Shown here one piece after another: positions 44,118-59,318 of a stretch of 64,000 nucleotides of DNA; the stretch's first letter is position 1; each line of letters opens with the position of its first letter. The notes under the pieces are model-generated. The model worked only from the letters and a program-made list of their open reading frames with translations. It was not told where the DNA came from and made no database searches. Made by a program: the position numbers and the translations under genes. Source of the stretch: Pseudoxanthomonas broegbernensis (lineage in GTDB: Bacteria > Pseudomonadota > Gammaproteobacteria > Xanthomonadales > Xanthomonadaceae); the NCBI RefSeq assembly GCF_014202435.1, contig NZ_JACHGU010000001.1:1-64000 (forward strand). The letters are read 5' to 3'.

Positions 44118-44609
44118 TCAGCCGGCGGCGGGCGAGGGTGCGAGCGGATAGCCGCCGAAGGACTTCATCTCGTCCATCAGGAAGTTGGAGGTGATCTTCT
44201 CCACGCCGAAGCCGCCTTCCATCATCTCCAGCATCAGCCGCTTCCAGTCGTGCAGGTCGGTGACGACCACCCGCAGCATGTAGTCGTACTGCCCGCTCAC
44301 CCGCCACGACTCGACCACCTCGCCGGTGCGCGCCACCCACTGGTCGAACCGGCCGAAATGGCCGGGCGAGTGCCGCTCGAACGAGACCTGGGCCAGGACG
44401 ATGGTCACCGCGCGGATGCGGTCCACCGCCACGTGCGCGTGGTAGCCGGTGATCAGGCGCTTGCCCTCCAGCTCGCGCACCCGCCGCAGGCAGGCGCTGG
44501 GCGACAGCGCCACGCGGTCGGCCAGGGCCTGGTTGGAGATCCGCGCGTCCTGCTGCAGCACCTGCAGGATCTTCAGGTCGGTGCGGTCGATGGTGTCTTT
44601 CAGGGACAT
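44118..44609 (-). CDS. Lrp/AsnC-family transcriptional regulator
   Basis: A 163-residue regulator. HTH in IDRTDLKILQVLQQDARISN then ALADRVALSPSACLRRVREL, and an RAM ligand-binding domain (about 70-155) with SFERHSPGHFGRFDQWVART and VSGQYDYMLRVVVTDLHDWK. This is the branch that responds to amino acids. It is divergent from the peptidase/permease/amidase operon to its right, which deals with peptides and amino acids and is its most likely target. The stop lies 45 bases from the IclR gene stop. Confidence 0.93.
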   Translation of the reverse strand: MSLKDTIDRTDLKILQVLQQDARISNQALADRVALSPSACLRRVRELEGKRLITGYHAHVAVDRIRAVTIVLAQVSFERHSPGHFGRFDQWVARTGEVVESWRVSGQYDYMLRVVVTDLHDWKRLMLEMMEGGFGVEKITSNFLMDEMKSFGGYPLAPSPAAG

Positions 44610-44979
44610 CTGCGGGTGGCCGTGGCGGGCGGAAGTGCCGGCAGTGTCCACAACGCTTCCCCGCGCCACAACCGTGCCCGATCGCGCGCGCGCGCGACCG
44701 CAGGATCTGTCGAATCGCCCCGCCCTGGCGTCGCACATCTGCGCAATTGCACCGCCCGGACGCGGGGATTGTTGCGCGCGACCGCAAGGAAATCCTTTTG
44801 CATCAATGGGTTGAAGCGATTCGGCGCATGCGCGTGGCGGCTGGACACGGGCCGGTGGCCGGGGCGTAGATAGGCCCGGGAAAACATCGTGCGCGTGTGC
44901 GGACTTCAACGCCGCGCACCGCCGGAACTTCGCGGCGCGGCCGCCGCCCATGCACCGCGCGACCTGGACGGGGAAGACG
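44610..44979. other. Divergent intergenic region between the Lrp gene and the peptidase operon
   Basis: 370 bases with no gene. It includes a locally less GC-rich stretch around 44770-44830 (AGGAAATCCTTTTGCATC, TTGAAGCGATTC) that may hold the operon promoter and Lrp sites. No repeat clear enough to name was found. Confidence 0.45.
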
Positions 44980-47286
44980 ATGGACGAGGGACGCAAGGCA
45001 AATGCGCGCGCGCCGGCACGGCGCCCGGCCGCACCGTCGGCATGCGCGCGCGCCGCCGCTCCAGGACCGTCCGCCGACCCGCCCATGGCCGGCCGCCGCA
45101 CCTTCCTCGCCGCTTGCGCCGGCCTGCTGGCGGGCGCCGTGTCGCCGCGGATCGCGGCGGCGGCCGCGTCCATCTCCGCGCCCTCTCCGTGGCCGCTGCC
45201 GCCGGCGGCAAGGCGGATCGCGGCCACGATCGGCCGCTTCGGCCATGCGCGCATCGACCCCTACGCCTGGCTGCGGCCGAAGGACTGGTTCGCGGTGCTG
45301 CGCGATCCATCCACGCTGGAGGCGCCGATCCGCGCCCAGATCGATGCCGAGAACGCCTACGCCCAGGCCATGCTCGCGCCGACGCGGCCGCTGCAGCGCC
45401 AATTGCGCGAGCGCATCGAACGGCTGGCCGCGCTGCCGCGCCCACTCGCCGGCCTGCGCAGCGGCGGCTTCCTCTACGCCACGCGCACGGCGGGCGGCAA
45501 CACCGTGCACGTGCGCACGCCATCGGCCGGCGGGCCGGAACAGGTGCTCCTGGACGAGGCCGCCGACACCGGCGGCAAGGCGCCGGCGGCCACCCGCCAT
45601 AGCGCCGACGGGCGCCTGTTCGGCTGGGCGGTCGAAACGGGCGAGGGACGCCACCGGCTGCGCGTGCGCACGGTCGCCGACGGCCGCCTGCGGGTGGACG
45701 ACATCGACGATGGCACCGGTGCGTTCGCGTTCTCGCCCGACGGCCGCTGGCTGTTCTGGGCCGCGCACGGGGCCGACGGACAGGGGGCGAGCGTGCTGCG
45801 CCGCGACCTCGCCTCCGGCGCGCAGGACGTGCTGTACGCCGAGGCCGACGCCGCCTTCGCGCTGACCCTGCGCACCACCGCGGCCGGCGGCTACCTGGTC
45901 GTCCGCGCCGACGATGGCCAGGCCTCGGAGGTGCGGCTGCTGGCGTTGCGCGCACCCGGGGCCGCGTTGCGGCGGGTCGAGCCGCGCACGCCGGGCCTGC
46001 GCTACGACGTGGACGAATGGAACGGCGGCCTGCTGGTGCTGACCAATGCCGACGGCGCCCACGACTTCAAGCTGATGGCCGCGCCGCTGGAGCGGCCGGG
46101 CCGCGCGGCATGGACGCCCCTGGTGGCGCACGTGCCGGGCCGCCCGATCCACGCGGTGCATCCGTTCGCCGCCGCGCTGGTGCGCGAGGAATGGCGCGAT
46201 GCCCTGCCGCGGCTGGTGCTGATGCACGCCGACGGTCGCGAGCGGGAGGTCGCGTTCGACGCGCCGGCCTGGGCGCTGCAGGTGGCGCCGGGGCAGGACT
46301 GGGACGTGGACGCGCTGGCGTTCGCCTTGCAGTCGCCGCGCATGCCGCCGCAGTCGCGCCTGCTCGACCTGGTGAGCGGCAGGCACGCGGCCGACGCCGC
46401 GCAGCCGGCGGCCGCGTCCTCGCCCGCGTTCGATCCGGAGCGCTACGAGGTGCGCCGTTTCGACGTCCGCGCCGACGATGGCGCGCAGGTGCCGGTCACG
46501 GTGGTGATGCGCGCCGGGCAGGCGCTGGACGGCAACGCGCCGCTGCTGCTGCGCGGCTATGGCGCGTACGGCCATTCGGCCGAGGCGGCGTTCGAGCCGC
46601 CGGTGCTGGCGCTGGTCGACCAGGGCTGGGTACACGCGGTCGCGCACGTGCGCGGCGGCGCCGAGCGCGGCAGCCGGTGGTGGGACGCGGTGCGGCGCAC
46701 CGGCAAGAAGAAGACCTTCACCGACTTCATCGCCTGCGCCGAGCACCTGGCCGATGCCGGCTACACCGCGCGCGGGCGCATCGTCGGCTTCGGCCTGTCC
46801 GCCGGCGGCACCCTGGTGGGCGCGGCGTACACGATGCGCCCGGAATTGTGGGCCGGGATGATCGCGCCGGTCGCGTTCGTGGACGTGCTGACCTCGCTGG
46901 AGTACTACGAGGACCACCCGATCGGCGCCCGCGGCATCCCGGTCTGGGGCGACCCGGCCGACCCGGCCGAGCACGCCTACGTGGCCAGCTACTCGCCCTA
47001 CGACAACCTGCGCGCGGCCGCGTATCCGGCGCTGCTGGCCACCGGCGTGGTCGACGACGACGCGGTCTCGTTCTGGGAGCCGCTGAAGTTCGCGATCAAG
47101 GCGCGCGTGCTGACCACGGCCGGGCAGCCGATCCTGTCGCTGACCGCTGCCGAGGGCGGCCACCTCGGGCCGCTGGGTGCGTATCCCGGCGTGGAGCAGC
47201 AGGCGATGTACCTGGCCTTCGCCATCTGGGCGGCGGAGCGGCGCTGGGGCGAGGTGCCGCAGCGCGCGCACGGGACCGCCCGGTGA
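44980..47286 (+). CDS. Oligopeptidase B-like S9 peptidase with Tat-type signal
   Basis: A 768-residue serine peptidase of the prolyl oligopeptidase/protease II type. N-terminal DPYAWLRPKDW, a beta-propeller, then the hydrolase domain with HVRGGAERGSRWWD, nucleophile Ser607 in GFGLSAGGTLVG, Asp in VVDDDAVSFWEP and His in AEGGHLGPL. A twin-arginine motif GRRTFLAACAGLLAGAVSPR lies about 36 residues in; an ATG at 45085 would place it at the very N-terminus, while 44980 has the better ribosome site (GGGGAAG). Export through Tat is likely. It is the first gene of the run whose next members overlap by 4 bases. Confidence 0.88.
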   Translation: MDEGRKANARAPARRPAAPSACARAAAPGPSADPPMAGRRTFLAACAGLLAGAVSPRIAAAAASISAPSPWPLPPAARRIAATIGRFGHARIDPYAWLRPKDWFAVLRDPSTLEAPIRAQIDAENAYAQAMLAPTRPLQRQLRERIERLAALPRPLAGLRSGGFLYATRTAGGNTVHVRTPSAGGPEQVLLDEAADTGGKAPAATRHSADGRLFGWAVETGEGRHRLRVRTVADGRLRVDDIDDGTGAFAFSPDGRWLFWAAHGADGQGASVLRRDLASGAQDVLYAEADAAFALTLRTTAAGGYLVVRADDGQASEVRLLALRAPGAALRRVEPRTPGLRYDVDEWNGGLLVLTNADGAHDFKLMAAPLERPGRAAWTPLVAHVPGRPIHAVHPFAAALVREEWRDALPRLVLMHADGREREVAFDAPAWALQVAPGQDWDVDALAFALQSPRMPPQSRLLDLVSGRHAADAAQPAAASSPAFDPERYEVRRFDVRADDGAQVPVTVVMRAGQALDGNAPLLLRGYGAYGHSAEAAFEPPVLALVDQGWVHAVAHVRGGAERGSRWWDAVRRTGKKKTFTDFIACAEHLADAGYTARGRIVGFGLSAGGTLVGAAYTMRPELWAGMIAPVAFVDVLTSLEYYEDHPIGARGIPVWGDPADPAEHAYVASYSPYDNLRAAAYPALLATGVVDDDAVSFWEPLKFAIKARVLTTAGQPILSLTAAEGGHLGPLGAYPGVEQQAMYLAFAIWAAERRWGEVPQRAHGTAR

Positions 47287-48782
47287 ACGGTGCCGCGCCC
47301 GCATTGCGCCGCGGCCTGACCTGGCGCTCGCTGCTGGTGCTGGGCATCGCCAACATCCTCGGCGCCGGGGTCTACGTGATGACCGGCACCGCGGCGGCGC
47401 AGTACGCCGGGCCGGCGGTGGTGGTGTCGTTCGGGCTGGCCGGGGCGGCCTGCGTCCTGGTCGGCCTGTGCTACGCCGAGCTGGCCGCGTGCATGCCCGA
47501 GTCCGGCTCGGCCTACACCTACTGCAGGCGCATGCTCGGGCTGGGGCCGGCATGGGCCCTGGGCTGGCTGCTGTTCCTGGAGTTCAGCGCCGGCGCGGCG
47601 CTGCTGGCGGTGGGGTTTTCCGGCTACCTGGGCAGCCTGCTCGGCGACCTGGGCCTGGCCCTGCCGGCGGCGCTGTCCACGCCGCTGGTGCGGGCCGGCG
47701 GCAGCGGCGGCCAGGTGGCGCTGGAACTCGGGCACGGGATCAACCTGGTGGCCGGACTGGCGGTGCTGGCGGCGGGCGCGGTGATGGCCTGGGGCATCTC
47801 GCATTCCTCGCGGGCCAACGCGGTGCTGGTGGTCATCAAGGTCGCGGTGCTGGTCGGCTTCGTGGCTGTGGGCGCCGGCGCGGTGGACGCGTCCCACTGG
47901 CGCCCGTTCGTGCCGCCCAACGAGGGCGGCTTCGCCTACGGCTGGCAGGGGGTGATGCGTGCGGCCTCGCTGCTGTTCTTCGCCTTCCTCGGCTTCGAGA
48001 CCGTGTCCACCGCCGCGGCCGAGACCGCCGACCCGCAGCGCGACGTGCCGCTGGGCATCCTCGGCTCGCTGGGGGTGTGCACCCTGCTGTACGGGCTGGT
48101 GGCGGTGGTGCTGACCGGGCTGGTGCCGTTCCGCGAGCTGGGTGTGCCCGACCCGATCGCCATCGCGGTGGACCGGATCGGGATGCCGGGCTTCGCCGTG
48201 CTGATCAAGGTCGGCGCGCTGGCCGGGCTGGCCTCGGTGCTGCTGGCCAACGCCTTCGGCCATTCGCGGGTGTGCTACGCGATGGCGCGCGACGGCCTGC
48301 TGCCCGGCCTGTTCGCGGTGGTGCACGCGCGCCGCGGCAGCCTGTGGCAGGCCAACCTGGTGCTGGCGGCGCTGGCCGCCGTCGGCGCCGCGCTGCTGCC
48401 GATCGCGGTGATCGCCGACATCGTCAGCTTCGGCGTGGCCTTCATGTTCAGCACCGTGGCCTTCGCCCTGATGCGCCTGCGCGGCGGCCAGCCGCACGCC
48501 GGGCACCGCTTCCGCGTGCCGCTGGGCGGACCGACCGTGCGCGGCACCTGGCTGGGCGTGGTGCCGGTGCTGGCCATCGCCTGCAGCGCGGCCATGGTGC
48601 TGCCGGTGGCGCTGGACATCCTCGGCCAACTGCGCCGCGGCGACTGGCTGCCGGCGCTGCTGCTGGGCGCCTACGGCGCGCTCGGCGCCGCGCTGTACTT
48701 CGGCTATGGCCGCGCCCGTGCGCGCGGCCTCGCCGTGGCCTCGCTTCCCGTCCCCCCCGCTTCCACCGGAACCGTCGCATGA
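47283..48782 (+). CDS. APC-family amino acid permease
   Basis: A 499-residue permease with about 12-14 helices. The first helix carries LGIANILGAGVYVMTGTAAA, the glycine-rich substrate site of the CAT/APC branch (as in YfnA), and the middle FFAFLGFETVSTAAAETADP motif is conserved. Takes up amino acids with protons. It starts with GTG overlapping the peptidase stop (GTGA), and its own stop overlaps the amidase start (ATGA): peptides cut outside could enter here as amino acids. Confidence 0.91.
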   Translation: MNGAAPALRRGLTWRSLLVLGIANILGAGVYVMTGTAAAQYAGPAVVVSFGLAGAACVLVGLCYAELAACMPESGSAYTYCRRMLGLGPAWALGWLLFLEFSAGAALLAVGFSGYLGSLLGDLGLALPAALSTPLVRAGGSGGQVALELGHGINLVAGLAVLAAGAVMAWGISHSSRANAVLVVIKVAVLVGFVAVGAGAVDASHWRPFVPPNEGGFAYGWQGVMRAASLLFFAFLGFETVSTAAAETADPQRDVPLGILGSLGVCTLLYGLVAVVLTGLVPFRELGVPDPIAIAVDRIGMPGFAVLIKVGALAGLASVLLANAFGHSRVCYAMARDGLLPGLFAVVHARRGSLWQANLVLAALAAVGAALLPIAVIADIVSFGVAFMFSTVAFALMRLRGGQPHAGHRFRVPLGGPTVRGTWLGVVPVLAIACSAAMVLPVALDILGQLRRGDWLPALLLGAYGALGAALYFGYGRARARGLAVASLPVPPASTGTVA

Positions 48783-50239
48783 GCGCCACCCCCATGAGCC
48801 TGCGCCAGGCCTTCGAGATCGGGCGCCTGGATGCGCACGACCAGGCCGCGCTGCGCCGCCGCGGCGAGGTGTCCGCGCCGGAACTGGCCGAAGCCGCGCT
48901 GCTGCGGATCGAGGCGCTGGACCCATTGCTGGGCGCGGTCAGCCATCGCGCGCCGGAACGGGCGCGGGCGCGCGCGGCCGGCCCGCTGGCCGACGCGCCG
49001 CTGGCCGGGGTGCCGTGGCTGGCCAAGGATTCGCTGGACTACCCGGGCATGCCGACCCGCGCGTGCTCGCGCAGCCGCAGCGGGGTGCTGGCCGAGCGCG
49101 GCCATGCCTACGCCGAGCGGATGGATGCGCAGGGCCTGGTGGCGGTGGGCAAGTCGTCGATGCCGGAGTTCGGCCTGCTCGGCTCCACCGAGCCGCTGGC
49201 CGGCCCGGTGACCCGCAACCCGTGGTCGCCGCGGCATTCGCCCGGCGGCTCCAGCGGCGGCGCGGCGGCGGCGGTGGCCGCCGGCCTGGTGCCACTGGCG
49301 CAGGGCAGCGACGGCGGCGGTTCGATCCGCATCCCGGCGGCCTGCTGCGGCATCGTCGGGCTCAAGCCGGGGCGCGACAGCACGGTGCGGGTGCGCGCGC
49401 GGCACACGATCGAGGACCTGCTGGTCGGCGACAGCCTGATGGCGCGCAGCGTGCGCGACGTGGCCCAGGGCTTCGCCGCCGCGCACGTCGACCCGCGCCG
49501 CGCCGCGGTCGCACGCCCGGGCGCCGCGCGGCTGCGGATCGGCGTGATCCAGGCCGGCCTGCTCGGCGATGCGCCGCATCCGGACGTGGCCGAATCGATC
49601 CGCGCCAGCGCCGACCTGTGCGCCTCGCTGGGACACGCGGTGGAGGCGGCGCAGTGGCCGCTGGACGGCACGGCCATGCTGCACGCCTTCCAGGACATCT
49701 GGACCCACCTGGGCGCCGACTGCGTGGATGCCGCCCGGCCGCTGCTGGGCGGGCGCCGGCTGGAGGATGCGCTGGAGCCCTGGACCCTGGCCCTGGGCCG
49801 GCGCGCGCTGGAACTGCCCACCGCCGCGCTGGAACGCGGCTACGCGCAACTGGCGCGGCTGCCGGCGCAGATGGCCGCCTTCCACACGCGCTACGACGTG
49901 CTGCTGTCGCCGGTGGTCGCCGCGCCGGTGCCGCCGCTGGGCAGCTTCGGCCCGTCGCTCCCGGCGGAGGAACTGATGGGTACGATGTTCGACTGGATCG
50001 CCTACACGCCGCTGCAGAACCTGGCCGGCACCCCGGCCATCTCGCTGCCGCTGTCCTGCGACGCGCAGGGCCTGCCGCTGGGCAGCATGTTCGGCGCCGA
50101 CCGCGGCGACGAGGACCTGCTGCTGGGCCTGGCGCTGGAACTGGAGCAGGCCCGGCCCTGGCAGGGGCGGTGGCCGCCCGTCTCGGTGGCTTCGCCGCCG
50201 GCGGCCGTTCCCGCACCTTCCTTTCCCCTGTCCGTGTGA
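48779..50239 (+). CDS. Amidase, amidase-signature family
   Basis: A 486-residue amide hydrolase. The Ser-cisSer-Lys triad is complete: Lys83 in [10 protein letters not shown], Ser158 in [12 protein letters not shown] and nucleophile Ser182 in [13 protein letters not shown], with the spacings (75 and 24) seen in fatty-acid amide hydrolase and other members. No signal peptide, so it acts in the cytoplasm. Substrate unknown; it may be an amide, amino-acid amide or carbamoyl compound. Translationally coupled to the permease before it; the PaiB-esterase fusion begins 7 bases later. Confidence 0.93.
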
Positions 50240-50246
50240 TCCGTCC

Positions 50247-51899
50247 ATGAATCCTCTCTTTTCCGCGCGCGGGCCCGCCGACGCGATCGACCTCTTCGCC
50301 GGCCAGCCCCTGGCCTGGATCGTCACCGGCCAGGCCGGGCAGCTCGGCGCCAGCGTGCTGCCGCTGCAACTGGAGTGCGATGCCGAAGGCCGGCCCGTGC
50401 GCATCCTCGGCCACTTCGGCCGCGGCAACCCGCAGGTGCGCGCGCTGGCTGCCGACCCGCGCGCCACCATCCTGCTGTTGGGCCCGCACGGCTACATCTC
50501 CCCGTCCTGGTTCGCCGACCGCAGCCGCGCGCCGACCTGGAACTACGCCTGGGCGGTGTTCGAGGTGGAGGTCGAACTGCGCGACACCCCGGCCGACGCC
50601 GATGCCCTGATCGGCGGCCTGGTCGAACAGATGGAGGCCGGGCGGCCGGCGGCATGGAGCGTGCGCGACATGGGCGCGCGCTACGCGCAGCTCGCGCCGG
50701 GCGTGGTCGGCTTCCACGCCCACGTGCGCGCGGCGCGCAGTGCGTTCAAGCTGGGCCAGGACGAACGCGACGACGTGCTGGCCGACATCCTGCGCGGGCT
50801 GGACATCACCGGCCAGGACGCGCTGGCGGCATGGATGCGCCGCTTCGCCCAGGACCGGCCGCAGGCGCTGCCCGCGCCGATGCCGGCGCCGGCGCCGCTG
50901 GACCCGGAGATCATGCTGTTCATCGACGACGTGCGCGCGACCTGGCAACGCCTGAGCCAGGGCCGCGCGCTTGACTGGCCCGCCCGCCGCGCGCTGGCCG
51001 AGGCCTCGCGCGCGCCCTGGCGCGAGGGCGGTCCGGCGATGGGCCGGACCACCGAGCCGAGCGCGCCGACCGAGGCCGGCCCGGTGCGCCTGCGCATCCA
51101 CGATCCCGCGCCGGGCCGGGCCAAGCCGACCCTGGTCTACATGCACGGCGGCGGCTGGGCGTTGTTCAGCCTGGACACCCACGACCGCCTGATGCGCGAG
51201 TACGCCCACGCCACCGGCATGGCCGTGGTCGGCGTGGACTACGCGCTGGCGCCGGAGGCGCGCTACCCGGCGGCGCTGGACCAGGTGGTCGGCGTGGTGC
51301 GCTGGCTGCGCGCGCACGGCGCCGACCACGGCCTGGACGGCGAGCGCCTGGCCCTGGGCGGCGACTCGGCCGGCGGCAGCCTGTCCATGGGCGCGGCGCT
51401 GAAGCTGCGCGACGCCGGCCAGGGCGATGCGGTCAAGGCGGTGCTGAGCATCTACGGCGGCTTCGGCCCGGACTTCTCCCCGACCGCCCTGCAGCGCTAC
51501 GCCTCGCCCGAGGACATGCTCACCGCGCAGGAGATCCGCGAGTTCTGGGACAACTACGCCGGCCACGTCCACGACCGCCGCGATCCCTGCCTGGTGCCGC
51601 TGCTCGCGCGCCTGGACGGGTTGCCGCCGGTGTTCCTGGTGATCGCCGAGTGCGACGCGCTGGCCGAGCAGAACCTGCAGATGGCCGGCAGCCTGCTCGC
51701 GGCCGGCGTCGCGGTGGAGGCGAAGGTCTACCCGGGCGCGCCGCACAGCTTCATCGAGGCGATGGCGGTGTCCTCGACCGCGCGCCGGGCGATCGCCGAC
51801 AGCGCGCGATGGCTGTGCCGGACCCTCGGCGTGGAGTATCCGGCGCCCGCCGCCGCCGACGGGCAGCGCGCCGACGGGTCCGGGGCCGGGCGCCGATGA
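50247..51899 (+). CDS. PaiB-like FMN-binding domain fused to an HSL-type alpha/beta hydrolase
   Basis: A 550-residue two-domain protein. Residues about 1-200 match PaiB-type split-barrel proteins (ILGHFGRGNPQVRALA, GPHGYISPSWFADRSRAPTW, then NYAWAVFEVEVELRD, and the AFKLGQDERDDV end). After a Pro-rich linker, residues about 285-530 form a hormone-sensitive-lipase-family esterase: oxyanion MHGGGWALFS (His300), nucleophile Ser374 in GGDSAGGSL, acid in AECDALAEQN, base His in GAPHSFIEA. Each half is complete. PaiB proteins are linked to sporulation and protease repression in Bacillus and bind flavin or heme-like ligands. The combination is unusual to me. Coupled to the amidase; the proC remnant overlaps its stop. 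Confidence 0.9.
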   Translation: MNPLFSARGPADAIDLFAGQPLAWIVTGQAGQLGASVLPLQLECDAEGRPVRILGHFGRGNPQVRALAADPRATILLLGPHGYISPSWFADRSRAPTWNYAWAVFEVEVELRDTPADADALIGGLVEQMEAGRPAAWSVRDMGARYAQLAPGVVGFHAHVRAARSAFKLGQDERDDVLADILRGLDITGQDALAAWMRRFAQDRPQALPAPMPAPAPLDPEIMLFIDDVRATWQRLSQGRALDWPARRALAEASRAPWREGGPAMGRTTEPSAPTEAGPVRLRIHDPAPGRAKPTLVYMHGGGWALFSLDTHDRLMREYAHATGMAVVGVDYALAPEARYPAALDQVVGVVRWLRAHGADHGLDGERLALGGDSAGGSLSMGAALKLRDAGQGDAVKAVLSIYGGFGPDFSPTALQRYASPEDMLTAQEIREFWDNYAGHVHDRRDPCLVPLLARLDGLPPVFLVIAECDALAEQNLQMAGSLLAAGVAVEAKVYPGAPHSFIEAMAVSSTARRAIADSARWLCRTLGVEYPAPAAADGQRADGSGAGRR

Positions 51900-52381
51900 G
51901 CGCCCGCATCGCGTTCGTCGGCGGCGGCCACATGGCGCGCTGCCTGGTCGGAGGATTGCTGCGGCAGGGCATGCCGGCCGCGGCGATCCGCGTGGCCGAG
52001 CCCGGCGCCGCGCAGTTGATGTCGGGTTCGGCGCGGCCTCCGGAGGAACTGCGCCGCCAGGTCGCATCGCCCGGCGGCACCACCGAGGCGGCGCTGTCCA
52101 CGCTGGCGCAGGGGCGGTTCGTCCCCTTGCTGGTGGAGGCGGTGAGCCACGCCGCGCAGCGCGGGCCGGCGCATGCGGCGGAGGCCGCGCGCGTTGGCGC
52201 GGGGAATCGCCTTCACCTAGAATCCTGGCGGTCGGACGCCAGCCGCTCGCCACGTCCCCCACGACCGTCGCCGGTCCCGATTCCCGGGGGCACCATGGGC
52301 TTGCAAGTTGCCGCGCGCCGCGCCGGTCCGGCTCGGGATGCCGCCGCCTGCGATGGCATCCCGGCGGCGGGGCCGGCATGA
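51896..52381 (+). pseudogene. proC: proC with in-frame internal deletion
   Basis: Starts at an ATG overlapping the previous stop. Residues 1-39 are the NAD(P)-binding N-terminus of pyrroline-5-carboxylate reductase (MSARIAFVGGGHMARCLVGG). The frame then jumps straight to the C-terminus, LMSGSARPPEELRRQVASPG, then the GTTEAAL segment and a RFVPLLVEAVSHAAQRG tail. The roughly 170 residues between, including the proline-binding part and the dimer helices, are missing. The frame runs on about 60 residues past the normal end to 52381. Not able to catalyse P5C reduction. The junction is near 52013. Confidence 0.82.
52218..52223 (+). promoter_or_regulatory. -10 element TAGAAT before the DUF3325 operon
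   Basis: CCTAGAATCC lies inside the far end of the proC remnant frame and about 155 bases before the DUF3325 gene; it may start the membrane-protein operon. Confidence 0.3.
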
Positions 52382-52668
52382 CGGCCGCCTGGCTGCTCCT
52401 TTCCCTGTTGGCCGCGCTGGGCTTCTACCTGGCCTGCGCGCACCAGAAGCTGTGGCCGCGGCGCGGCGGCCGCGTCCGCGCGCTGCGCATGGCGGCGGGG
52501 GCATGCGCGCTGCTGGCGTTGCTGGCGGCGATCGCCGCACTGGGCGTGTGGGCCGGCGTGTTCGCGGCGCTGACCGCGTTCATGCTGGCGGCGGTGCTGC
52601 TGCCGTACTTCGATGCCTGGCGCCAGGCGCGCGCGGCGGCGCACGAGGAGCCGCGCCATGTGGGGTAG
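52378..52668 (+). CDS. DUF3325 domain-containing membrane protein
   Basis: A 96-residue protein with three hydrophobic helices (LLLSLLAALGFYLACA; ACALLALLAAIAALGVWAG; FAALTAFMLAAVLLPY). The LACAHQKLWPRR pattern after the first helix is typical of DUF3325. In many proteobacteria the gene lies with DUF3649 and PepSY-type membrane genes near siderophore receptors, so it may help handle iron-siderophore complexes. Its start overlaps the stop of the proC remnant, and its end overlaps the next gene. Confidence 0.8.
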   Translation: MTAAWLLLSLLAALGFYLACAHQKLWPRRGGRVRALRMAAGACALLALLAAIAALGVWAGVFAALTAFMLAAVLLPYFDAWRQARAAAHEEPRHVG

Positions 52669-52930
52669 GTCGCTGGCCGCCGCATTGCTGGGACTGCCGC
52701 TGGCGGTGGGCCTGGTGGGCCTGCTCGCCCTGGCGTGGCCGGGGCGGCTGGAGGCGACCACGCTGCCCTGGCTGCTGCTCGCGTTCCCGGTGTGGATCGC
52801 GGCGATGTCGCTGGCCTTCGCGTGCAGGACCGGGTTGCGCGCGTGGCTGTGGCTGGGCGGCGCCACGGCGCTGTGCTTCGGCCTGATCCACGCGTGCAAG
52901 TGGCTGGGGTGGGTGGAGGTGGGCGCATGA
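52658..52930 (+). CDS. DUF3649-like small membrane protein
   Basis: 90 residues with three predicted helices (ALLGLPLAVGLVGLLALAW; LPWLLLAFPVWIAAMSLAFA; WLWLGGATALCFGLIHACKW). It corresponds in size and gene order to the DUF3649 proteins of siderophore-linked operons. It overlaps the preceding gene by 11 bases and the following gene by 4 (ATGA). Function unknown. Confidence 0.78.
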   Translation: MWGRSLAAALLGLPLAVGLVGLLALAWPGRLEATTLPWLLLAFPVWIAAMSLAFACRTGLRAWLWLGGATALCFGLIHACKWLGWVEVGA

Positions 52931-54471
52931 GGGCCGCCACGCTGCGCACCTTCCTGTCGGTGCATACCTGGGTCGGCCTGGTCGCCGGCATGGCGCTGTT
53001 CATTGCTTTCTACGCCGGGTCGGTCACCGTGTTCACCCACGAGCTGGGCGACTGGCAGCGCGCCGACGACGGCGCCGTCCACGCTCCGCTGGAACGGTCG
53101 CAGGCGCTGCTCGATGCGCTGCTGGCCGCGCACCCGGAGTCGGCCCACAGCGTGTTCCTGGTGCTGCCCGGCGAGCACGGCCCGCAGCCCTCGGCGTACT
53201 GGTACAACGAATCGAGCGGGCAATCGCGCCGCTTCGTGCTGGACGCCGCCGGCGTGCTGGAAGAGGCCCCGCCGCGCCTGGGCGCGGTCGACTTCGTCTA
53301 CGACCTGCACTTCACCGCCGGCCTGCCGCGCACCTTCGGCACCTACCTGTTCGGGGTGGTCTGCGTCCTGTACGGGCTGGCCCTGGTCAGCGGCGTGGTG
53401 ATCTACGCGCCGGGCCTGCTCAAGGATCTGTTCGCGCTGCGCCTGGGCCGCAACGTCAAGCGCCTGTGGCAGGACGCGCACAACGCGGTGGGCGTGCTGT
53501 CGCTGCCGTTCCACGTCGTGTTCGCCTGGACCGGGGCGGTGCTGGCCATCGGCCTGCTGCTGCTGGCGCCGTTCCAGTTCCTGGTCTACGAGGGCAGGCT
53601 GCTGGAGATCCTGGAGACGGATTTCGAGGTCGCCCCGCACGTGGAGCCGGCCGGCGTGACCAGGCCGATGCTGCCGCTGGACGAGCTGCTGCGCCGCGCG
53701 CAGCGGGAACTGCCCGCGCTGGAGATCAACTCGATCGGCTTCCACGATGCCGGCGACGCCAACGCCCAGGCCACGGTGTACGGCGAACTGGCGCAACGGC
53801 GCCTGACCAGCACCGGCGCGGTCGCCCTGAACGCGGCGAGCGGCGAGACGATCGCCACCTCCGAACCCCGCGACTATTCGCCGGGCCGGGCGTTCCTGTA
53901 CGCGATGTACTCGCTGCATTTCGGCAACTTCGGCCACTACGCGGTGAAGTGGCTGTACTTCGTCCTCGGCCTGGCCGGCGCCTTCCTGTTCTACAGCGGC
54001 AACCTGCTGTGGATCGAGGCGCGGCGCAAGCGCAGGCAGGCCGGGCAGCCGCGCCGCACCCGGGTCATGGCGGGGCTGACCCTGGGCGTGTGCCTGGGGT
54101 GCGTGGCCGGCGTGTCGGCCACGTTCCTGGCCGGCGCGCTGCTGGCGGACCCGTGGGCGCCGCGCGGCTACTACCTGGTGTTCTTCGCCAGCCTGGCGTG
54201 GGCGCTGCTGCGCCCGCCGGCCCGCGCCGCGCACGAACTGCTGTGGGCGTGCGCGCTGCTGACCGCGGCGATCCCGCTGGCCGGGTTCGCCGCGTCCGGC
54301 GAACATCCGCTGGCGGCGATGCGGCATGGCCACTGGCACCGCTTCATGGTGGACGCCGTCGCCGTGGCGATGGCCGCCGCCTACTGGCGGATGGCCCGCG
54401 CCGCGCTGCGCCGCGGCCTGCACGGCGATCCGAACAGCGTATGGGCGCTGCCGCGGGCGGCGCGGGACTGA
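52927..54471 (+). CDS. PepSY-associated TM protein (siderophore reductase-like)
   Basis: A 514-residue inner-membrane protein. The first helix follows LRTFLSVHTWVGLVAGMALF, with a conserved His; further helices carry NAVGVLSLPFHVVFAWTGAV (His residues) and SLHFGNFGHYAVKWLYFVLG. The His pattern suits haem binding by four-helix PepSY_TM proteins such as the siderophore-iron reductases (FoxB/PiuB type). A periplasmic PepSY-like domain lies between. Probably moves electrons across the membrane to ferric siderophores. No TonB-dependent receptor is next to it. Confidence 0.88.
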   Translation: MRAATLRTFLSVHTWVGLVAGMALFIAFYAGSVTVFTHELGDWQRADDGAVHAPLERSQALLDALLAAHPESAHSVFLVLPGEHGPQPSAYWYNESSGQSRRFVLDAAGVLEEAPPRLGAVDFVYDLHFTAGLPRTFGTYLFGVVCVLYGLALVSGVVIYAPGLLKDLFALRLGRNVKRLWQDAHNAVGVLSLPFHVVFAWTGAVLAIGLLLLAPFQFLVYEGRLLEILETDFEVAPHVEPAGVTRPMLPLDELLRRAQRELPALEINSIGFHDAGDANAQATVYGELAQRRLTSTGAVALNAASGETIATSEPRDYSPGRAFLYAMYSLHFGNFGHYAVKWLYFVLGLAGAFLFYSGNLLWIEARRKRRQAGQPRRTRVMAGLTLGVCLGCVAGVSATFLAGALLADPWAPRGYYLVFFASLAWALLRPPARAAHELLWACALLTAAIPLAGFAASGEHPLAAMRHGHWHRFMVDAVAVAMAAAYWRMARAALRRGLHGDPNSVWALPRAARD

Positions 54472-54527: not shown

Positions 54528-56840
54528 ATGCTGAGATGGATCCGTCGCGTCGCCTTGCTGCTGCTGGCACTGGCCGCGCTGGCCGCGCTTTCGGCCTGGG
54601 TGCTGCTGCGCGGCAGCCTGGCCGACCTCGACGGCGAAGCCGGCTTGCCCGGCCTGTCCGCGCCGGTGTCGATCCAGCGCGATGCCCTGGGCACGGTCAC
54701 CGTGGAGGCGGCCGACGAGACCGACATGGCGCGCGCGCTGGGCTACGTGCACGCCCAGGAGCGCTTCTTCGAGATGGACCTGATGCGCCGCACCGCGGCC
54801 GGCGAGCTGTCCGAACTGTTCGGGCCGATCGCGGTGGAGTTCGACAAGCGGCACCGCGCGCATCGCATCCGCGCACGGGTGGCGGCCGACCTGGCGGCGT
54901 TCACCGGCGGCCATGCGGCGCAGTTGCAGGCCTATGCCGACGGCGTCAACGCCGGCCTGGCGGCGCTGGCCGTCCGTCCCTGGCCTTACCTGCTGCTGCG
55001 CCAGGCGCCGCGCCGGTGGGAGGTGGCCGATTCCGCGCTGGTCGGCTACGCCATGTACTTCGACCTGCAGGACGCGGGCAACGCGCGCGAGCTGGCGCTG
55101 TGGAAGATCAAGCCCCACCTGCCGCCGGCGCTGTACGCACTGCTGGCCCACGACGGCAGCCAGTGGGACGCGCCGCTGCTGGGCCAGGCGCGCGGCAATG
55201 CGGCCCTGCCCGATGCCGGCGAGGTCGACCTGCGGCGCCTGCCGGTGGCCGCCGCCGCGCGGCAAGGGCTGCCCGAGAGGCTGGCCCCGGGCAGCAACAA
55301 CTGGGCGGTGGGCGGCGCCCTGACCGCCGACGGCCGCGCCATCGTCGCCGACGACATGCACCTGGGCCTGCGCGCGCCCAACCTGTGGTTCCGCGCGCGC
55401 CTGCGCTACGCCGATGCGCGGGCGCCCGGCGGCAGGGTCGAGGTTGCCGGCTTCACCCTTCCCGGCGTGCCGGCGGTGATCGCCGGCAGCAACGGGCACG
55501 TGGCGTGGGGGTTCACCAACGGCTACATCGACAACGCCGACTGGCTGGCGGTGCCCCGGGATTCGCCGGACATCCGCCAGTACGAGGAGACGGTCCGCGT
55601 CGCCGGGCAGCCGGCGCAGGTCCTGCGGGTGCGCGAGTCCGGCTGGGGCCCGGTCCTGGCCGAGGCGGGCGACGACCTGCTCGCGCTGCGCTGGACCGCC
55701 CAGCAGCCCGGCGCGATGAACTTCGCCCTCTCCGGCCTGGCCTCGGCCCGCGACCTCGACGCGGCCTTCGCCGTGGCCGACCTGGCCGGCATGCCGGCGC
55801 AGAACCTGGTGGTCGCCGACGCCGGCGGCCGGATCGGCTGGCGGTTGATCGGCGCGCGTCCGCACCGTTCCGGCGATTGCGATCCGGCCACGGTCGCGGC
55901 CGGCGCCTGCGAGCCATGGGCGATCGAAAGCGCCGGTGCGCCGAGCCTGGTCGACCCGCCCTCGCACCGCTTGTGGACCGCCAACAACCGCATCCTCGAC
56001 GGCGCCGACCTGGCCCGCGCCGGCGATGCCGGCTACGCCCTGGGCGCGCGCGCCGGGCAGATCCGCGACGGCCTGTTCGCCCAGGAGCGCTTCACCGAGC
56101 GCGATCTGCTGGCCCTCCAGCTCGACGACCGCGCGTTGTTCCTGGAGCGCTGGTGGGCGCTGCTGCAGGCCGAGGCCGGCAAGGGCGCGGCGCTGGGCGA
56201 GCTGGCCGCGGCCGCGCGGCGCTGGGAAGGGCGCGCGAGCCCGGAGTCGGTCGCCTACCGGCTGGTCGGCGCCTGGCGCCTGGCGGTGCATGCGCGCATC
56301 GCCGATGGCTTGACCGCGCCGGCGCAGGCCGCGCTCGGCGAGGACTTCCAGATGCCGTGGCTGCCGCAGTTCGAGGGCGTGGCCTGGCCGTTGCTGGAAC
56401 AGCGCCCGGCGCATCTGCTGCCGCCCCGCTTCGCCGATTGGGATGCGCTGCTGGAAGACGCGGCCAAGGAGGTCGGTGCGGACCTGGGCGGCCACGGCGC
56501 GCTGGCGCAGCGCCGCTGGGGCGAACTCAACACCGCGCGGATCTGCCATCCGCTGGCGGCCGCGCTGCCGGGCTGGGTCGGGTCCAGGCTGTGCATGCCG
56601 GCCGACGAACTGGCCGGCGACACCGACATGCCGCGCGTGGCCGCGCCCGCGTTCGGCGCCAGCCAGCGCATGGTCGTTGCCCCCGGACACGAGGCGGACG
56701 GCATCGTCCACATGCCGGGCGGGCAGAGCGGGCATCCGCTGTCGCCGTTCTGGGGCGCCGGGCACCGGGCCTGGGTCGACGGCGAGCCGACCCCGTTCCT
56801 GCCCGGCCCGGCCGAGCACGTGCTGGCCCTGTCGCCCTAG
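54528..56840 (+). CDS. Penicillin acylase-family (S45, Ntn-hydrolase) amidohydrolase
   Basis: A 770-residue proenzyme. Signal peptide or anchor LLLLALAALAALSAWVLLRG, alpha-chain region with ALGYVHAQERFFEMDLMRR, a spacer, then the autocatalytic site: Ser256 in APGSNNWAVGG becomes the N-terminal nucleophile of the beta chain. IVADDMHLGLRAPNLWF and TNGYIDNADW are usual for the family. Cleaves N-acyl amides in the periplasm, which can include acyl-homoserine lactones, acylated siderophore precursors or beta-lactams. GGGGGA precedes the ATG at 54528. The upstream PepSY gene ends 56 bases away. Confidence 0.92.
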   Translation: MLRWIRRVALLLLALAALAALSAWVLLRGSLADLDGEAGLPGLSAPVSIQRDALGTVTVEAADETDMARALGYVHAQERFFEMDLMRRTAAGELSELFGPIAVEFDKRHRAHRIRARVAADLAAFTGGHAAQLQAYADGVNAGLAALAVRPWPYLLLRQAPRRWEVADSALVGYAMYFDLQDAGNARELALWKIKPHLPPALYALLAHDGSQWDAPLLGQARGNAALPDAGEVDLRRLPVAAAARQGLPERLAPGSNNWAVGGALTADGRAIVADDMHLGLRAPNLWFRARLRYADARAPGGRVEVAGFTLPGVPAVIAGSNGHVAWGFTNGYIDNADWLAVPRDSPDIRQYEETVRVAGQPAQVLRVRESGWGPVLAEAGDDLLALRWTAQQPGAMNFALSGLASARDLDAAFAVADLAGMPAQNLVVADAGGRIGWRLIGARPHRSGDCDPATVAAGACEPWAIESAGAPSLVDPPSHRLWTANNRILDGADLARAGDAGYALGARAGQIRDGLFAQERFTERDLLALQLDDRALFLERWWALLQAEAGKGAALGELAAAARRWEGRASPESVAYRLVGAWRLAVHARIADGLTAPAQAALGEDFQMPWLPQFEGVAWPLLEQRPAHLLPPRFADWDALLEDAAKEVGADLGGHGALAQRRWGELNTARICHPLAAALPGWVGSRLCMPADELAGDTDMPRVAAPAFGASQRMVVAPGHEADGIVHMPGGQSGHPLSPFWGAGHRAWVDGEPTPFLPGPAEHVLALSP

Positions 56841-56910: not shown

Positions 56911-58212
56911 TCAGGCGCCGGCGTCCTTCATCGTCGGTGCTGCGCCGGTCCGCCCGCGCAGGCGCAGGACCGCCAGGTAGATGGCGGCGGCGAGCAGGGT
57001 CGCATCCAGCGTCGGCACCCCGGTCAGGGTCGCGCGGCAGGCCGACGCCAGCAGCGCGATCGCCACCGAGACGGCCCAGGTGGCCAGCGCCGGCCAGCGG
57101 ATCGCGGGCAGGTCGCGCAGGGTGGCCGCCGCGTCCGCGTGGCGGAACACGGTGAAGCCGTCGATCACGTAGATCGCGGCGATGGGCGGGATGATCAGCC
57201 CCAGGAACAGCAGAAACGGGATGAACGCGTCGATGATGCCCATCAACGCGAAGCAGGCGCCGATCGCGCCGCCCAGCAGGGTGAACATCCACGGCCGCAC
57301 CGCGGGGAAGGTGGCCGACAGGGACAGGCTGGCCGAATAGAGGTTGGCCGCGTTGATCGTCCAGCACGACAGCACCAGCATGGCCAGCGCCGGCACGCCC
57401 AGGCCGAAGCCGACGATCAGCTTCATGATGTCGGTCTGCCCGGTGGCCAGCGCCGGCAGCGCGGCGGCCACCATCAGCAGCGGCGCGGCGACCGGGAAGG
57501 ACAGGGCCATGCCGGCCAGCGCGCCGCGGGCGGTGCGGATGTAGCGCGACAGGTCGGGCATCGCGGCCACGGTCAGCATGTTGCCGCCGACCAGCGCCGA
57601 CAGGGCGATGCCGAAGCCCATCGGCACCGGCGGGTCGGGGCTGGGCTGGAGCACGAAGCCGTGCTTGCGCACCGCCGCCACGCACACCCACACCAGGATC
57701 GCGCCCAGCAGCGGCACCGCGACCAGGGCCAGCCGCTCCAGGGTGCGGAAGCCGTAGATCGTGGAGACCGTCATCAGCACGCTGCCGACCGCCACGAACG
57801 CGGAGAACGGCACCTGCACGCCGTAGAGCTGCTCGGTGGCGGCCACCATCGCGATGCCGAAGAACGACACGTTGACCCCGAACCACCCGTAGTGCACCAG
57901 CGCGATCACCAGGTTGACCACCGCCGCGCCGCGGCGCCCGAACGAGCGCTGCACCAGCAGGTAGGTGGTCAGGCGGCTGCGCACGCTGACCACCGAGGTC
58001 AGGCAGCCGCCGATGCACAGCAGCGCGCCGGCCAGCAGCGCGGCCAGCACCGCCTGGCCGAAGCCCAGGGCCAGGCCGGTCTGCGCGCCGTTGAGGAAGG
58101 CCGGCGCGGCGATGGAGAAGCTGGCCACGATCAGCGCCACGCGCCAGCCCGGGACCAACTGGTGCGCGGGCACCGGCGCGTTGGCGTACTGGGCCGTGGC
58201 CGGGGCCGTCAT
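56911..58212 (-). CDS. NCS1-family purine/cytosine (hydantoin-type) permease
   Basis: A 433-residue permease with about 12 helices. SFSIAAPAFLNGAQTGLALG in the first helix, TTYLLVQRSFGRRGAAVVNL, the VHYGWFGVNVSFFGIAMV segment and the TVFRHADA end match the CodB/cytosine-permease branch of NCS1. Imports a nucleobase, hydantoin or similar ring with sodium or protons. It is the last gene of the unit and overlaps the DUF917 gene by 4 bases, so the substrate is probably what the DUF917/hydantoinase pair opens. Confidence 0.92.
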   Translation of the reverse strand: MTAPATAQYANAPVPAHQLVPGWRVALIVASFSIAAPAFLNGAQTGLALGFGQAVLAALLAGALLCIGGCLTSVVSVRSRLTTYLLVQRSFGRRGAAVVNLVIALVHYGWFGVNVSFFGIAMVAATEQLYGVQVPFSAFVAVGSVLMTVSTIYGFRTLERLALVAVPLLGAILVWVCVAAVRKHGFVLQPSPDPPVPMGFGIALSALVGGNMLTVAAMPDLSRYIRTARGALAGMALSFPVAAPLLMVAAALPALATGQTDIMKLIVGFGLGVPALAMLVLSCWTINAANLYSASLSLSATFPAVRPWMFTLLGGAIGACFALMGIIDAFIPFLLFLGLIIPPIAAIYVIDGFTVFRHADAAATLRDLPAIRWPALATWAVSVAIALLASACRATLTGVPTLDATLLAAAIYLAVLRLRGRTGAAPTMKDAGA

Positions 58213-59318
58213 CGGCCGGCATCCCAGCCGTTGAGGGCCTCGATCGGCACGTAGCCCTCGGCGAAGCCGAACGCGGCCGGGCCGACGAAGTCCAGCGCGC
58301 GCGCCTCGCGCAGCATCGGCGGCGCCGCGGCGCCGACCACCTTGACCCGCTGCCCGTACTTGAGCCGCTCGGTGGTGATGCTGTCGGCGGTCTCGCGGTC
58401 CATCACCGTGATCAGGTCCGGCACCATCGCGCGGACCTGGCCGTCGCGGCGCGCGACCAGGTTCTCGTTCTGGAATTCCAGCAGCATCCGTCCCCCGTCC
58501 TCGCCGAAGCCCTCGATCGCCACCCGTCCGACCGAGAAGCCGTTGCGGGTCTCGCGTTCGAGGTCGACGATCTTGCCGTCGAACAGCACGCCGGCGCGAG
58601 CATAGAGGCCCGAGCGGCGCAGCGCGTCGAACAGCGCGGCGAACGGGTCGCCGCCGCCGCCGCGCGCCCGGCGCACCGCCGCGCCGATGGCGATGGCCGC
58701 CGAGACGCTGCCGCCGATGGCGTGCTCGCGCGCCTGGCGCCCGCTGAGCGGGTACTCGGCCATGTGCGCGATCCCGCCCATCGCCACCGAGACGCCGCGG
58801 GCGATGCGCTCGTGGGCCAGGTTGTCCACGCTTTCCACCACCACCAGCGAGCCGCCGGCGTCGGTCAGCACCGAGGGGCAGGCCGACAGCCCGCGGATGT
58901 TGAAGATGGCCATTTGCGACTCGGGGAAGGCGCGCCCCATGCCGTCGGCGTCGACCATCGGCACGCCCAGTTGCGCGGCCGCCGTCAGCGGCGCCAGGCC
59001 GTTGCCGCCGCCGATCTCCACCGGCATCACCGCGTCGATCCGGCGGTCCAGGATGCGCTCCATCCGGCGCAGGCCGGCGACGGTCTCGCGCCCGCTGGGC
59101 AGCTTCTCCACCGACACCGTAGGCGCGCCGATCCAGCCGCAGGGCACCACCAGCGCGTCGTCGGCCAGGTCCTCCAGCGCGACCAGGCCGATGGCGCCGT
59201 GGCGGGCCAGCTCGGCCTCGGCCAGCAGCCGGGCGTAATAGGGGTCGCCGCCGCCGCCGGACCCGAGGAAGGCGGCGCCGCAGGCCAGGTCGGCCAGGGC
59301 CGTGCGGTCAATGCGCAT
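58209..59318 (-). CDS. DUF917 (S-methyl thiohydantoin desulfurase-type) protein
   Basis: A 369-residue protein. The Gly-rich CGAAFLGSGGGGDPYYARLL near the N-terminus, PVEIGGGNGLAPLTAAAQLG, the DADGMGRAFPESQM motif and ADSITTERLKYGQRVKVVGA are family marks. DUF917 proteins are nearly always beside hydantoinase/oxoprolinase genes and are thought to act on (thio)hydantoin-like rings. No signal peptide. It overlaps the hydantoinase gene by 11 bases and the permease by 4. Confidence 0.93.
   Translation of the reverse strand: MRIDRTALADLACGAAFLGSGGGGDPYYARLLAEAELARHGAIGLVALEDLADDALVVPCGWIGAPTVSVEKLPSGRETVAGLRRMERILDRRIDAVMPVEIGGGNGLAPLTAAAQLGVPMVDADGMGRAFPESQMAIFNIRGLSACPSVLTDAGGSLVVVESVDNLAHERIARGVSVAMGGIAHMAEYPLSGRQAREHAIGGSVSAAIAIGAAVRRARGGGGDPFAALFDALRRSGLYARAGVLFDGKIVDLERETRNGFSVGRVAIEGFGEDGGRMLLEFQNENLVARRDGQVRAMVPDLITVMDRETADSITTERLKYGQRVKVVGAAAPPMLREARALDFVGPAAFGFAEGYVPIEALNGWDAGR

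Follow-up and report, generated by a model that had tools for sequence, protein, structure and literature searches.

A NohD-like domain fused to an HSL-type esterase in a candidate operon for hydroxamate siderophore degradation

Described relatives of the fused protein

NohD, a haem-dependent N-hydroxylamine dehydratase, belongs to a recently described family of haem dehydratases (Higgins et al., JACS 2025, as cited in PMC13274692; PDB entries 9oqs-9or1 are probably from the same work). We describe a gene that joins a NohD-like domain to a complete HSL-type esterase in one reading frame, located in a stretch of 64,000 nucleotides of Pseudoxanthomonas broegbernensis DNA (hereafter, the window, meaning the whole of this stretch). 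In our judgement, the protein is probably a bifunctional catabolic enzyme of an operon that imports and degrades the hydroxamate siderophores of other microbes, and its substrates are probably ornithine-based, of the coprogen, fusarinine and rhodotorulic acid kind. The fusion itself is real. Its chemistry, the siderophore substrate, the bond cut by the esterase and the advantage of being fused are what we infer from the comparisons given below.

The N-terminal domain of the fusion shares with NohD its fold, 33-34% sequence identity, the predicted haem ligand His, the Thr/Lys dyad, an Arg (144 in NohD, 145 in the fusion) and a small residue (59 and 58, respectively). The solved NohD chains, on the other hand, are single-domain proteins of about 206 residues, and they have Val96 where the fusion has Ala95. 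The piperazate synthases (KtzT, PipS, SbPZS and LnzB) have the same fold and haem site, which in the synthases forms at a dimer interface, and are also joined to a pathway partner in nature, but the fusion does not retain their Tyr and Asn (nor the Lys found in SbPZS). According to PMC11705231, natural fusions of the synthase with an N-hydroxylase exist, and PipS acts on some substrates only as a dehydratase, converting the hydroxylamine to an imine that yields an aldehyde by hydrolysis. In the synthase fusions the partner is an N-hydroxylating monooxygenase, whereas here it is a hydrolase in a setting that looks catabolic. PaiB, a Bacillus regulator (PDB 2ol5 and 9vyc), is from the same Pfam family as the N-terminal domain and has the haem-site residues; it is more distant in sequence, carries Asn at the place of Asp172, and the genome of the window has a separate, canonical PaiB. 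The C-terminal half resembles the HSL-type esterases Aes, Est8 and PestE (PDB 3ga7, 4ypv and 2yh2) in its HGGG and GDSAG motifs, its triad Asp and His and 31-34% identity, but the NohD-like N-terminal domain is present only in the fusion.

Degradation of siderophores by bacteria has long been described. PMC12364333 and PMC11800396 trace reports of ferrichrome breakdown back to the 1960s and those of desferrioxamine breakdown to the 1990s, citing the studies of Neilands (1964-65) on ferrichrome A and those of Castignetti and of Winkelmann on desferrioxamine. Desferrioxamine B and ferrichrome A serve as carbon sources for bacteria that hydrolyse them, the desferrioxamines also as nitrogen sources, and in Aspergillus the fusarinines are opened by esterases (same sources). 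The amide hydrolysis of hydroxamate siderophores for carbon or nitrogen is common to these reports and to the operon proposed here; the difference is that the reports, as far as accessible, name activities and metabolites and not a gene set. No description of the operon or of the fusion was found in the literature searched (on NohD, siderophore degradation, and PaiB with siderophores; many subscription journals lie outside its coverage).

The fusion gene and its occurrence

The gene runs from ATG to TGA without interruption. Pfam places FMN_bind_2 at residues 4-161 (E 8e-30) and Abhydrolase_3 at residues 296-503 (E 1e-57), both far over the cut-off. In the AlphaFold2 model (whole-protein mean predicted local distance difference test score, pLDDT, 84), the linker between the two domains is the part of lowest confidence. 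A sequence-only reading of the window had noted a single uninterrupted frame of 550 residues with both halves intact, and the open reading frame, the Pfam domains and the translated relatives all bear this out. The four esterase motifs that it listed were located as well (HGGGW at 300-304, GDSAGG at 372-377, ECDALAEQN at 468-476 and GAPHSF at 497-502).

The C-terminal half has the HGGG and GDSAG motifs, the triad and the alpha/beta hydrolase fold that define HSL-type esterases, and the whole-protein model matched solved members of this group with Z of about 43. The Ser-Asp-His triad presumably consists of S374, D470 and H500; these residues and the HGGG are invariant in 12/12 aligned fusions. 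None of the curated NCBIfam cut-offs for HSL subfamilies was reached by the esterase half.

We next considered the relatives. Intact fusions are present in 11 of 395 genomes of the family of the window, the latter included (12 loci, one genome having two), and one further genome among these has a truncated fusion. A pattern-based, non-exhaustive scan of the GTDB species collection gave 32 loci: 18 intact fusions, 1 truncated, 12 of split type (the halves being separate genes) and 1 fragment. The fused loci come from Luteimonas, Pseudoxanthomonas, Stenotrophomonas, Steroidobacter, Peristeroidobacter, Pseudoduganella and Duganella, that is, from Lysobacteraceae, Steroidobacteraceae and Oxalobacteraceae (family assignment from one species each). 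When 369 genomes sampled from the class and 398 from the phylum were searched at E 1e-45, no fusion besides that of the window was obtained, and the fusion is thus rare and patchy.

An artefact of sequencing or assembly that joined two genes could be imagined, as other clades do carry two separate genes: the halves are separate neighbouring genes in 20/20 sampled loci of split type, and in one of them (genome G031) the stop of the PaiB-like gene and the start of the esterase gene overlap by four bases (ATGA). We consider the chance of such an artefact negligible, and the relatives have already refuted it. The fusion is repeated in many independent assemblies from three bacterial families; both halves lie in a single open frame in 11/11 intact fused family loci besides the window, and the translated fusions of the species scan had no stop (13/13, from 18 intact fused loci). 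In trees of the N-terminal domain, the esterase, the amidase and the permease, built from the window and the family loci only (the Steroidobacteraceae and Oxalobacteraceae copies being outside them), the fused loci formed one clade each time, with support of 100/99 or 100/100. The recurrence of this clade in all four trees indicates that the genes move together as a cassette, and from these trees the fusion looks like one event within the family of the window. The sequence-only reading had suggested that the same fusion beside amidase and APC genes in several lineages would point to a real system, and that domains found apart in all close relatives would speak against it. The arrangement recurs in the three families, and many relatives are fused while other clades are split.

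Two loci stand apart. The truncated fusion of genome G013 (L003/L058/L104) is without the haem-site part and abuts an opposite-strand piece that by eye resembles hydroxymethylglutaryl-CoA lyase. L115, from a record labelled Bacillus subtilis SK7B5, is a complete split cluster of Stenotrophomonas type, and this record is probably contaminated or mislabelled.

The predicted haem site of the N-terminal domain

Searches of solved sequences with the N-terminal domain gave eight distinct NohD sequences as the nearest, the majority belonging to engineered variants (best 9or1, 3e-26, 95.6 bits; unmutated 9oqs, 3e-25, 92.5 bits), followed by the piperazate synthases (60-53 bits) and then PaiB (51 bits). 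As the esterase half filled the list of structure matches of the whole model, we folded the domain alone (mean pLDDT 83). With this model, NohD accounted for 11 of the top 13 Foldseek rows (E 4e-16, TM-score 0.77-0.81, at the identity given above). Piperazate synthases and haem-bound PaiB came beyond these, and plain FMN-binding split barrels were far weaker. The PDB titles of the NohD entries state that the crystals contained haem, name N-hydroxylated ornithine in two entries, and list the mutants T98A/K167A, A59N, V96A and R144Y. The canonical PaiB of the same genome (contig C2), in comparison, first matches PaiB 2ol5/9vyc.

PMC13274692 gives the synthase residues as haem ligand His61, Asn66, Thr102, Tyr150, Lys173, Asp177 and Lys178. 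Their equivalents in the fusion are, in the same order, His56, Asn61, Thr97, Arg145, Lys168, Asp172 and Glu173. The counts that follow are from rows pooled from two collections, with some species present in both, and the gap rows L058 and L104 were left out at positions 56-97. His56, Asn61 and Thr97 are identical in 30/30 fused rows covering them, and Arg145, Lys168, Asp172 and Glu173 in 32/32; residue 58 is Ala in 24, Gly in 5 and Pro in 1 of the 30 rows covering it. In the split loci, position 97 is Ser in place of Thr in 22/32. H56, T97 and K168 match the haem ligand His and the Thr98/Lys167 dyad of NohD. At the NohD positions Ala59, Val96 and Arg144 the window has Gly58, Ala95 and Arg145, two of the three being NohD-like.

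These comparisons support a predicted cofactor site of the haem type rather than the flavin type. The sequence-only reading had offered either cofactor; the likeness to NohD and the conserved haem positions favour its haem alternative over the flavin one. It had also suggested that the N-terminal half may bind a cofactor by which the hydrolase is gated or supplied; that this is its whole role is not supported. As its nearest solved relatives (NohD, then the piperazate synthases) are enzymes, the N-terminal domain more likely gives the pathway another active site. We infer that the fusion binds haem and acts as a dehydratase.

Some of the residues weigh against a strictly NohD-type assignment. 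Ala95 is synthase-like, the residue being Val in NohD. The His ligand and the Thr/Lys dyad also occur in PaiB, and are therefore necessary but not sufficient; the PaiB of the same genome likewise carries Arg145 and a small residue 58 (Ala), so that these two exclude a synthase but not PaiB. This overlap, the common Pfam family FMN_bind_2 and the statement in PMC13274692 that PaiB binds haem and forms no N-N bonds would suit a domain that senses haem or flavin and controls the esterase (or transcription) in the manner of PaiB, without any chemistry of its own. We regard such a sensor as improbable, because the domain is nearer to NohD than to PaiB by both sequence and fold, and because Asp172, as in NohD and SbPZS, is Asn in PaiB 2ol5 and in the genome's own PaiB. 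Moreover, the halves also occur as separate adjacent genes in either order (the esterase gene comes first in split loci L065, L069, L071 and L075), which fits pathway partners.

The same fold and haem-site residues, together with Ala95, could also indicate a piperazate synthase in a biosynthetic operon, but this is very improbable. The synthase marks are absent: Arg145 replaces Tyr150, Gly58 (Ala in most relatives) stands in place of the Asn that SbPZS and LnzB have two residues past the haem His, and Glu173 occupies the position of Lys178 of SbPZS and is not Lys/Gln. The adjoining genes are those of hydrolases and uptake proteins, and the carrier genomes tested have no full-length copy of the N-hydroxylase that such a pathway employs (see below).

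A Tyr near position 146 was considered as a mark shared with the enzymes and was rejected; it rested on the engineered R144Y variant 9or1, and against unmutated 9oqs the equivalent residue is Arg145. Eight stand-alone relatives of the N-terminal domain (L079-L086; 44-50% identical) are without cassette genes, except for one weak S9 match. In these proteins Asn61 is replaced by His or Ser in 5/8 and Asp172 by Asn in 6/8, and their activity is possibly different.

The operon and its candidate substrate

In the window, the S9 peptidase, APC permease, amidase and fusion genes are closely packed on the + strand (Table 1), in agreement with the run of peptidase, permease and amidase that the sequence-only reading had placed before the fusion.

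Table 1. Features of the fusion gene and its operon (positions in the window)
Feature	Position	Strand	Remarks
Lrp/AsnC regulator, divergent	44118..44609	-	Pfam
S9 peptidase, oligopeptidase-B-like	44950..47286	+	258 bits, under equivalog cut-off 1313
APC amino-acid permease (PF13520), start approximate	47277..48782	+	Pfam
Amidase (PF01425), directly upstream of the fusion	48779..50239	+	best solved relative 6-aminohexanoate cyclic dimer hydrolase
Fusion gene: NohD-like (PaiB/FMN_bind_2 fold) domain and HSL-type esterase, 550 residues	50247..51899	+	Pfam, alignment
N-terminal domain, residues 1-208	50247..50870	+	H56 and N61 predicted for the haem site, T97 and K168 as catalytic pair; R145 aligned with NohD Arg144
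Linker between the domains, rich in Pro and Ala, about residues 203-219	50853..50903	+	AlphaFold2 model
C-terminal HSL-type esterase domain; HGGG 300-303, S374, D470, H500	50880..51899	+	Pfam, structure match, alignment
Second proC (pyrroline-5-carboxylate reductase) of cluster type, remnant	51896..52381	+	start overlaps fusion stop (ATGA)

We tallied the neighbours after clustering the loci by esterase DNA at 90% and keeping those of at least 15 kb, which gave 18 of 21 fused and 20 of 20 split clusters; the fused clusters under 15 kb (L053/L096, L091 and L101) and the fragment L119 were left out, and the row of the window was entered by hand. The 18 unique fused loci have an amidase in 16, an APC permease in 15, an FhuE-type receptor in 12 (counted as a homologue at 45% identity or more), an ArgE-type deacetylase in 10 and an MFS transporter in 10. 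Further neighbours are Lrp (7), S9 peptidase of the window type (5), another TonB receptor (3), AstA (2) and a CocE/NonD hydrolase (2). In the 20 unique split loci, Lrp, TonB receptor, APC permease, amidase and S9 peptidase were found 17 times each.

With 296 bits (cut-off 223.5), the FhuE-type receptor of locus L048 passed the siderophore-receptor model TIGR01783. Among the equivalogs it scored best with FhuE, the receptor of rhodotorulic acid and coprogen (399 bits), and among solved proteins E. coli FhuE came first (7e-92), with the ferripyoverdine receptor behind it. The M20 protein of the same locus passed the acetylornithine deacetylase model TIGR01892 (412 against 298 bits). Two long Steroidobacteraceae loci also have an FhuE-type receptor in a different gene order, and that of L093 passes TIGR01783 with 298 bits.

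A second clue comes from proC. Dehydration of N5-hydroxyornithine, followed by hydrolysis and ring closure, would give pyrroline-5-carboxylate (P5C), and a P5C reductase is expected in the operon if P5C is its product. In the window, the middle of ProC, comprising most of the protein, has been lost by an in-frame internal deletion, and an intact proC lies elsewhere in the genome (G000:C2:324905-325693). Searches with full-length ProC found an intact proC directly after the S9 gene in 6/20 unique split loci, with an overlap of four bases at 6/6 junctions, one per locus (three ATGA and three GTGA). Two proC genes, one of them in the cluster, were present in 7 of 9 genomes searched, and the genome of L118, a metagenome assembly, has the cluster proC only. 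The motif GGGHMARCL, or this with the last letter changed, occurs in 4/6 cluster ProC proteins, as in the remnant of the window, the other two being close variants; the two housekeeping-type copies compared have GGGNMARSL. Around 13067-13074 of L118, the S9 match lies in two frames, from a frameshift or an assembly error.

N-hydroxyornithine is mainly a siderophore building block, and many siderophores bind iron through it. No full-length ornithine/lysine N-monooxygenase (PF13434) was found in 15/15 carrier genomes tested, which had at most partial matches (best 48 bits); true N-monooxygenases were recovered in 3 of 114 other genomes used as a control, covering the model in full at 370-386 bits, and one more of these genomes has a partial match (149 bits). 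Aerobactin-type synthetases are present in 1/15 carrier genomes. The hydroxylamine should therefore come from outside the cell.

Coprogen has an ester bond, and N-acetyl and hydroxamate groups on its ornithines, bonds that would employ the esterase, ArgE, the amidase and the haem domain in turn. In the proposed pathway, a TonB receptor, FhuE-type in many relatives, would import the siderophore and the esterase half would open its ester bonds. The amidase, with the S9 and M20 enzymes, would cleave amide or hydroxamate bonds and N-acetyl groups to release free N5-hydroxy-L-ornithine. The N-terminal haem domain would then dehydrate this hydroxylamine to an imine, hydrolysed to glutamate semialdehyde/P5C, which ProC (a remnant in the window, with the intact paralogue elsewhere in the genome) would reduce to proline. 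The fusion may thus hold in one chain the esterase that frees the N-hydroxyornithine unit and the haem enzyme that destroys the iron-binding hydroxylamine of this unit, with a benefit such as fixed stoichiometry or handover of the reactive hydroxylamine. For this pathway in its entirety we put the chances as even. The sequence-only reading had placed the esterase in a deacylation or ester-cleavage step on a compound first handled by the amidase. Amidase and esterase are indeed present, and the siderophore and ornithine context in the relatives changes their meaning.

If this proposal is true, a single conserved operon would be a testable gene set for the destruction of hydroxamate siderophores by bacteria, and the old, open question of siderophore degradation would become testable with it. 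It would also give the NohD family a catabolic role, and the annotation "FMN-binding negative transcriptional regulator" may in some cases conceal a haem enzyme that acts in nitrogen chemistry. Siderophore loss through such operons could affect the competition for iron among fungi, bacteria and plants.

Several observations weigh against a siderophore substrate. The cassette of the window has neither an adjoining siderophore receptor nor, within the window, an ArgE homologue, and altogether 3/18 unique fused loci (that of the window, L047/L088 and L058/L104) are without such a receptor in the stretch read. On contig C3 (L143), the genome of the window does encode an FhuE-type receptor, which shares 54% identity with the L048 receptor. 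The equivalog cut-off of FhuE was not reached (399 and 407 against 666 bits), and the ferripyoverdine receptor is close behind FhuE (280 against 312 bits). The one split-type receptor scored fell under the siderophore cut-off (133 against 223.5 bits), as did the one Duganella receptor scored (148 bits). All ten ArgE-MFS linkages are from one bacterial family, and the proC beside the fused locus L092 is the sole proC of that genome and was not counted above.

Iron control is likewise not indicated. We scanned 350 bases upstream of the genes with a simple 19-base consensus for the Fur box, against single-base shuffles, and no clear enrichment was found upstream of the receptor or operon genes. 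Upstream regions over the 95% mark were FhuE 5/13, ArgE 0/11, split-type TonB receptor 1/20, APC 0/29, amidase 1/32, S9 0/5, AstA 0/2 and Lrp 4/23. Four of the five FhuE matches are one sequence or nearly so, resembling coding sequence of the preceding MFS gene, and the best single site (13/19, L072) is common to the TonB and Lrp upstream regions of its locus.

With no clear Fur box, a split-type receptor under the cut-off and no receptor or ArgE at the window, a non-siderophore substrate stays a serious rival. The N-terminal domain would still be a haem dehydratase, while the operon would feed, for instance, on amino acids or peptides of another kind, N-hydroxylated or acylated, or would serve hydroxylamine detoxification tied to ornithine/arginine catabolism. 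The split clusters hold most of the same genes, along with S9 peptidases, and the regulators are Lrp-type. AstA, the arginine N-succinyltransferase, points to general arginine/ornithine catabolism in two betaproteobacterial loci, a Duganella cluster (TIGR03244 passed, 399 against 391 bits) and one Pseudoduganella cluster. We nevertheless think this alternative unlikely, though far from negligible, because the FhuE-type receptors of the fused loci span two families and two gene orders, and because of the place of N-hydroxyornithine in siderophores noted above. Degradation of ornithine-based hydroxamate siderophores is thus the reading that we prefer.

A few other observations concern the surroundings. 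At two distant proteobacterial loci (L141 and L142), PaiB-like and esterase genes are again accompanied by a TonB receptor, there together with a large PD40/Amidohydro_1 protein. On contig C3, a PepSY protein adjoins the FhuE-type receptor of L143. Downstream of the fusion in the window (52378-54471) are two small hydrophobic open reading frames (about 52378-52668 and 52658-52930; no Pfam match) and then a PepSY_TM membrane protein, followed at 54528-56840 by a member of the penicillin-acylase family that weakly matches the model of the siderophore acylase PvdQ (31 bits, cut-off 950). Just past the right end of the window, at G000:C1:64378-66354, lies a TonB receptor that passes the cut-off for siderophore receptors with 265 bits; its relationship to the FhuE-type receptors found in the relatives is only distant. 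By eye, 56911-60700 on the - strand holds a permease and then two open reading frames resembling hydantoin-type utilisation genes, with a LuxR/MalT-like regulator nearby on the + strand.

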